A stretch of 34,596 nucleotides of DNA from Paracoccaceae bacterium (GTDB lineage Bacteria > Pseudomonadota > Alphaproteobacteria > Rhodobacterales > Rhodobacteraceae): NCBI GenBank assembly GCA_013139635.1, contig WTAL01000245.1:1-34596 (forward strand), given 5' to 3'. The notes beneath the pieces were generated by a model. That model was not told the DNA's origin. It did not search any database and was given only the letters and a program-made list of their open reading frames with translations. Each line of letters opens with the position of its first letter. Within the stretch, counting starts at the first letter, position 1. Positions 6,468 to 7,295 of the stretch are shown piece after piece. A program made the position numbers and the translations under genes.

Positions 6468-6495
6468 TTGACTCTCCCTTTTAAACCACTATAAC
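6468..6495 (+). promoter_or_regulatory. Candidate sigma70-type promoter for rpsD
   Basis: TTGACT, 16-nt spacer, TATAAC; about 125 nt upstream of the GTG start. Confidence 0.55.
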
Positions 6496-6505
6496 CCGCC
6501 CATCC

Positions 6506-6621
6506 GGTGCTGCAAGGCTCCGGTGATTTTGGTGTTTGTGGACCCCGCAAGGGGAAACCTGTCACTCGGCTAATAATGGTCGGGTAAGGAAAGCACCTTT
6601 CAAACCTGAAAGGATCCAGCC
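6506..6621 (+). promoter_or_regulatory. Structured 5' leader of rpsD, candidate autogenous regulatory RNA
   Basis: GGTGCT(6506-6511)/AGCACC(6592-6597); CCCC-GCAA-GGGG (6543-6554); ACTCGGC(6564-6570)/GTCGGGT(6579-6585); CCTTTCA-AACC-TGAAAGG (6596-6613) covering the Shine-Dalgarno. Confidence 0.5.
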
Positions 6622-7242
6622 GTGACTAAACGTACAGCTGCCAAGTATAAAATTGACCGCCGCATGGGCGAAAACATTTGGGGCCGCCCCAAATCTCCCG
6701 TAAATCGCCGTGAATATGGCCCGGGCCAGCACGGCCAAGGCCGTAAGCAAAAGCTTTCTGACTTCGGCACGCAGCTGCGCGCCAAGCAAAAGCTTAAGGG
6801 CTATTATGGCGACGTAACGGAAAAGCAATTCCGCCGCATTTATGCCGATGCCGAGCGCATCAAGGGCGATACAGGTGCAAACCTGATCGGCTTGCTAGAG
6901 CGCCGTTTGGACGCGGTTATTTACCGTGCCAAGTTTGTGCCAACCGTATTTGCCGCGCGCCAGTTCGTAAACCACGGCCACGTGACTGTGAACGGCAAAA
7001 AGGTGAACATCGCCTCCTACCGCGTAAACGAGGGTGACGTGATCGCCGTGCGTGAAAAATCCCGCCAGATGGGCCTTGTGATTGAAGCTATCGCTTCTGC
7101 CGAGCGCGACACACCTGAGTACATGAATGTGGACCACAGCAAGCTGACGTGTGAATTTTTGCGCACACCTACGCTTTCGGATGTGCCTTACCCAGTGGTT
7201 ATGGAACCAAATCTGGTGGTGGAATTCTACGCGAAGAACTAA
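6622..7242 (+). CDS. rpsD: 30S ribosomal protein S4
   Basis: [39 protein letters not shown]... [26 protein letters not shown] (S4 domain); GTG start. Confidence 0.98.
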
Positions 7243-7261
7243 GGTTTTTCGTATTTCAAAG

Positions 7262-7295
7262 AAAAGGGGCTGCACTTTGGTGTGGCCCTTTTTTT
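7262..7295 (+). terminator. Intrinsic terminator after rpsD
   Basis: AAAAGGGGCTGCAC-TTTG-GTGTGGCCCTTTTTTT hairpin plus U tract. Confidence 0.75.

Follow-up and report, generated by a model that had tools for sequence, protein, structure and literature searches.

How is ribosomal protein S4 controlled where its gene, rpsD, lies apart from the alpha operon, as it does in Alphaproteobacteria (PMC10931766)? Autogenous regulation by S4 is established in E. coli and B. subtilis (PMC10931766; PMC7247131). The reason for the diversity of rpsD location is given as an open question in a 2024 review, the accessible text of which reports no regulation of the separate alphaproteobacterial gene (PMC10931766). 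The stretch of DNA analysed here, a contig of 34,596 nucleotides from a Paracoccaceae bacterium (the window), carries rpsD behind a leader in which an earlier, sequence-only reading had seen a candidate autoregulatory structure with a buried Shine-Dalgarno (SD) sequence. The encoded S4 is 83-88% identical to its closest Rhodobacteraceae relatives by protein comparison, and the upstream neighbour of rpsD is a divergent gene. A probable intrinsic terminator follows rpsD, which is therefore probably monocistronic and the sole gene of its transcript; the earlier view that rpsD stands alone was thus borne out by the open reading frame (ORF) list and by the terminator at 7260-7295.

Each of the short elements that had been picked out by eye is present where it had been placed: GGTGCT (6506-6511), AGCACC (6592-6597), CCCC-GCAA-GGGG (6543-6554), ACTCGGC/GTCGGGT (inside 6564-6585), CCTTTCA-AACC-TGAAAGG (6596-6613), AAAGGA (6609-6614) and the GTG at 6622. 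Folded as a single sequence, the leader does not stand out (z = -1.61; an equally good fold was obtained for 14 of 200 shuffles), so that the case for it rests on comparison.

Rhodobacteraceae rpsD loci were gathered with the S4 protein, which found a match in 195 of 199 genomes, and 90 upstream regions were taken. The pattern GGTG(T/C)T-N-G-N-G stands ahead of rpsD in 89 of these 90 leaders, the remaining one (L004) being a diverged copy. Among Rhodobacterales loci from titled GTDB genomes, which include Paracoccus, Cereibacter johrii, Ruegeria, Sulfitobacter and Roseobacter species, the motif was found in 79 of 80, and the remaining locus, from Neomegalonema (L189), is diverged. Rhodobacterales leaders follow one plan. 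The 5’ half consists of a TTGACT..TATAAG promoter, an optional 5’ hairpin, GGTGTTGGTGG, a GNRA hairpin and CCTGTC; the 3’ half continues with a variable hairpin, AGGACAACGCCCTTC, a variable loop and GAAGGAGATCAGCC-GTG. The conserved fold is a three-way junction of helices P1, P2 and P3, with the SD-burying hairpin directly 3’ of it (Table 1).

Table 1. Coordinates of the rpsD leader and its surroundings in the window.
Feature	Position	Strand	Basis or remark
Probable promoter: TTGACT 6468-6473, 16-nt spacer, TATAAC 6490-6495	6468-6495	+	Sequence reading
P0, lineage-specific 5’ hairpin, contains GGTGCT	about 6501-6526	+	Folds alone, -11.5 kcal/mol
P1, 5’ strand, GGTGTTT	6531-6537	+	Pairs with 6591-6597, 7 bp
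J1/2 junction, G then usually pyrimidine	6538-6539	+	G invariant in 67 aligned leaders
P2: GG/CC base (6540-6541/6558-6559) and CCCC-GCAA-GGGG hairpin (6543-6554), GNRA loop	6540-6559	+	
J2/3 junction, UGUC	6560-6563	+	GUC invariant in 67 leaders
P3, variable-sequence hairpin	6564-6585	+	Pairs 41-82 and 42-81 of alignment A2
J3/1 junction, AAGGA	6586-6590	+	AGGA invariant in 67/67 leaders
P1, 3’ strand, AAGCACC	6591-6597	+	Last two C also in SD hairpin
SD-sequestering hairpin, 6596-6602/6607-6613	6596-6613	+	Covariation, pairing probability
Shine-Dalgarno, AAAGGA	6609-6614	+	Sequence reading
rpsD, ribosomal protein S4, 206 aa, GTG start	6622-7242	+	ORF
Probable intrinsic terminator 3’ of rpsD	7260-7295	+	GGGGCUGCAC-UUUG-GUGUGGCCC then U run, -22.2 kcal/mol

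Over 76 Rhodobacterales sequences, 90.5% of the cells in the structure comprising P1, P2, P3 and the SD hairpin are paired, and 14 of its 23 pairs have changed on both sides. The covariation score was 0.268 against a shuffle mean of 0.091, and none of 500 shuffles, a control that leaves the relatedness of the sequences in place, reached 0.268; sliding the partners by 1-3 columns gave at most 0.098. Across lineages, the structures counted scored 0.561-0.640, compared with 0.24 for shuffles. In Rhodobacterales rpsD upstream regions the structure is thus both conserved and covarying, and the case of no covariation, for which the sequence-only reading had allowed, did not arise.

The comparison redrew the closing helix. 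P1 is paired in 99.8% of cells in the 76 Rhodobacterales sequences. Most genomes have GGUGUUG/CAACGCC and the window's group has GGUGUUU/AAGCACC, two forms that differ by one compensatory pair (G-C to U-A) and two wobble exchanges; across lineages, five of the seven pairs have changed on both sides (G-C, C-G, U-A). Because this pairing is conserved and compensatory, it replaces the closing helix 6506-6511/6592-6597 proposed earlier: in the conserved fold the 3’ strand pairs with 6531-6537, and GGTGCT belongs to the variable P0, which is absent from many relatives. In families outside Rhodobacterales (e.g. in L138, L303 and L297), P1 is interrupted by an A.C mismatch, a bulged U or a bulged A, always at one level some four positions away from the junction; Rhodobacterales have a G-C pair there.

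Both internal hairpins of the earlier reading, CCCC-GCAA-GGGG and ACTCGGC/GTCGGGT (P3), were upheld by comparison. The P2 stem shows compensatory changes in four of four pairs in Rhodobacterales. At its second base pair, 200 of 212 leaders have G-C and seven have A-U; wherever A occurs, in these seven, U stands opposite. In P3, alignment pairs 41-82 and 42-81 (A2) have changed on both sides in about half of the sequences. A different pairing, CCU with AGG (6558-6560/6587-6589), is energetically good but nearly invariant, and the A-U replacements favour the GG/CC base of P2; it was rejected.

The junction core, G-Y-G, CUGUC and AGGA, is constant across families while the helices around it are rewritten, and the leader is a well-sampled case of this behaviour. 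(The sole U to G exception in J2/3, at column 52, is L143, apparently misaligned there.) This constancy bears on whether the leader does more than fold. Strong 5’-end hairpins can stabilise mRNA, and the ordinary single-sequence fold would suit a passive structure that protects the message or sets a low basal level of translation with no ligand; such a structure, however, needs no invariant junction across families whose helices are rewritten, and we consider this account decidedly unlikely.

To follow the leader beyond the aligned loci we used covariance models. Model R1, built from the alignment of 76 sequences, detected the leader throughout Rhodobacterales, in 296 of 296 genomes and in 114 of 114 genera, mostly with one match per genome. 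Adjacency to rpsD was checked for those matches that were fetched, and all checked strong matches lie directly 5’ of rpsD, in its 5’ untranslated region. The source genome gave a single strong match (E = 1e-18), with nothing else better than E = 0.89; across the class, R1 found only Rhodobacteraceae members and two weak sites with no rpsD. In several other alphaproteobacterial families, diverged rpsD leaders keep this layout but have different helices, ACGCACCC-GUGG-[P2]-CCUGUC-[P3]-AGAGGA-GGGCGCGU-UUCC..GGAAA. Models R2 and R3 also matched more families of the class; in 249 genomes of the phylum they found nothing outside the class. For R2, 30 of 31 checked loci, nearly all outside Rhodobacteraceae, are immediately 5’ of rpsD; the one that is not is the weakest match (E = 0.044). 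Where weak matches (E > 1e-3) were checked, no rpsD was nearby, except for L309 (E = 0.012), which precedes rpsD; weak matches without rpsD were taken as chance. Five loci from other alphaproteobacterial families (L146, L149, L152, L153 and L156) lack the motif and have in common another string close to the start, approximately CUAUCGGGACAACAAC, possibly the mark of a second rpsD leader class.

The SD-burying hairpin seen earlier also held up in comparison, and it covaries: pair 96-140 (A2) is C-G in 69 sequences and U-A in 6, and 84.9% of cells in the helix counted are paired. In the window, pairing probability exceeds 0.9 for six of its seven pairs. When leaders were folded from the 3’ strand of P1 onward, the SD was paired in 206 of 218, comprising 155 of 160 Rhodobacterales and 51 of 58 others. 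The spacer between SD and start codon is unusually conserved, AUCAGCC in most leaders and UCCAGCC in the window (6615-6621). No covarying partner for it was found among the leaders compared, and pairing of AUCAGCC with the P1 5’ strand was rejected on changes that are one-sided or pair-breaking.

We favour the reading, with a probability of about 0.72, that the leader of the monocistronic rpsD mRNA is where S4 holds down the translation of its own message. S4 is taken to be the ligand because the motif is linked exclusively to rpsD and because E. coli and B. subtilis provide precedents. S4 in excess of free 16S rRNA would bind the junction, bound S4 would fix P1 together with the adjoining SD hairpin, and the 30S subunit could then not use the rpsD start site. 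The target of control is suggested by three results: the SD is paired in nearly all leaders folded, a scan of the window found no terminator-like site on the plus strand between leader and rpsD, and a GTG frame inside the motif is not kept in phase, which together argue for control of translation. That frame is stop-free in 155 of 168 leaders, as a leader peptide would require, but its length is not kept modulo 3 (68, 63, 37) and no SD was seen ahead of it. The leader peptide was rejected on the unconserved phase, and with no terminator-like site at which an attenuator could act, either device is highly improbable.

A regulatory RNA for rpsD could instead answer to another ribosomal or RNA-binding protein, a small RNA or a metabolite. 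The invariant junction core resembles a binding site for which computation identifies no ligand, and mimicry of 16S rRNA is missing at the sequence level, CUGUC being absent from E. coli 16S over its first 658 nt; a 16S search of the source genome and of one relative gave no hit, and E. coli 16S served for this comparison. Yet rpsD, and no other gene, follows the motif at each verified locus, and the leaders of single ribosomal-protein genes normally bind that protein, with precedents for S4 (PMC7247131), which makes a ligand other than S4 unlikely.

Whether P1 and the SD hairpin act together, as repression by S4 would have it, or as alternatives depends on their overlap. P1 and the full SD hairpin share C6596-C6597 (2 nt) in the window; most Rhodobacterales share 1 nt. 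Elsewhere the overlap is wider: leaders of other lineages have an extended SD hairpin that competes with P1 for about 4 nt, and GCGU in the 3’ strand of P1 has a second partner, (A)CGC, immediately 5’ of the start codon (for example in L301, L303 and L297, from other families). The earlier proposal of a two-state switch was right about the shared cytosines, but the overlap is only 2 nt here and larger in relatives, so that the two helices may or may not act as a switch. As a variant of repression by S4, it would make the two helices mutually exclusive, a ligand shifting the balance and turning translation on or off. Enforcing P1 in the window raises the ensemble 2.9 kcal/mol above the free one, so P1 may need a ligand; with the shared cytosines and the pairing next to the start codon in other families, this speaks for a switch, and the competition for about 4 nt in those lineages fits one in either direction, including activation. 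However, most Rhodobacterales share a single C, and forms with both helices (P1 plus a shortened SD helix) differ from comparable forms with P1 open by no more than about 1 kcal/mol, which implies that both helices can coexist; covariation, for its part, supports both helices and is silent on mutual exclusion. We regard the two-state variant as rather doubtful.

A wider version would unite the leaders of Rhodobacterales and several other alphaproteobacterial families in one S4 class, in which only the junction core is kept, all helices drift and S4 chooses between P1 and the extended SD hairpin in a true switch. We put this forward tentatively, as clearly less probable than its opposite. If true, such a switch class would explain S4 control where rpsD is separate from the alpha operon.

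The leader was also compared with known RNA families, as the sequence-only reading had suggested for Rfam. With cmscan, Rfam 15 gave no match in the window at the gathering threshold and none to E = 5 around the leader. At the leaders of relatives no family exceeded threshold, the weak matches all falling below it. The sole true Rfam match among relatives is a TPP riboswitch (RF00059) upstream of rpsD in L032 (160-249, minus strand).

Of the described S4 leaders, that of B. subtilis and other Firmicutes shares several features with the leader described here: a lone rpsD, an untranslated leader and no pseudoknot (PMC10931766). In B. subtilis S4 represses its own translation (PMC10931766), and by analogy the same is proposed here. 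The Firmicutes leader contains a conserved GUAA that imitates 16S rRNA (PMC7247131), whereas the conserved core here is a different three-way junction; a GUAA does occur in the window at 6584-6587, but it is not shared by relatives generally, nearly all of which have ARAGGA at the corresponding junction. The E. coli alpha operon leader (Alpha_RBS), at which S4 regulates the operon encoding it by translational control, offers a further analogy for the control proposed here; it differs in its pseudoknot, its five-gene operon and its entrapment mechanism (PMC10931766). Alpha_RBS gave no cmscan match here, and the leader precedes a lone rpsD rather than the alpha operon. The S4 leaders of Bacteroidia, Clostridia, Flavobacteria and Fusobacteriales likewise came from comparative sequence analysis (Eckert and Weinberg 2020, PMC7247131); they belong to other lineages, and two are described as hairpins.

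The accessible text of the same paper lists no S4 leader in Alphaproteobacteria (PMC7247131), and the accessible main text of surveys of GC-rich intergenic regions covering Rhodobacterales or many genomes makes no mention of rpsD. The published S4 leaders that we found thus belong to other phyla or classes, and the form of this leader is absent from Rfam 15 and from the literature searched. It probably adds another RNA fold for S4; among ribosomal protein leaders it is one more class, widespread, and useful rather than revolutionary. A universal, single-copy, covarying leader before rpsD is a concrete target for direct test in tractable hosts such as Cereibacter, Paracoccus or Ruegeria.

Upstream of the motif, transcription would start near 6501-6504, judging from the probable promoter. 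The TTGACT/TATAAC pair at 6468-6495, on which the sequence-only reading had relied, is present but does not appear in the list from a strict sigma-70 scan of the window. A promoter-like pair precedes the motif in 158 of 168 Rhodobacterales leaders, and in these the commonest distance from the end of the -10 element to P1 is 12 nt, or about 30-43 nt where a 5’ hairpin lies between them. P0 was found in the closest relative, L187, and is missing from many other relatives. The 5’ spacing is bimodal: the -10 element ends 9-13 nt from P1 in 92 of the 158 leaders and mostly 26-50 nt away in the rest, and in the long-spaced leaders the gap is taken up by a GC-rich hairpin, in many cases with a short U run after it.
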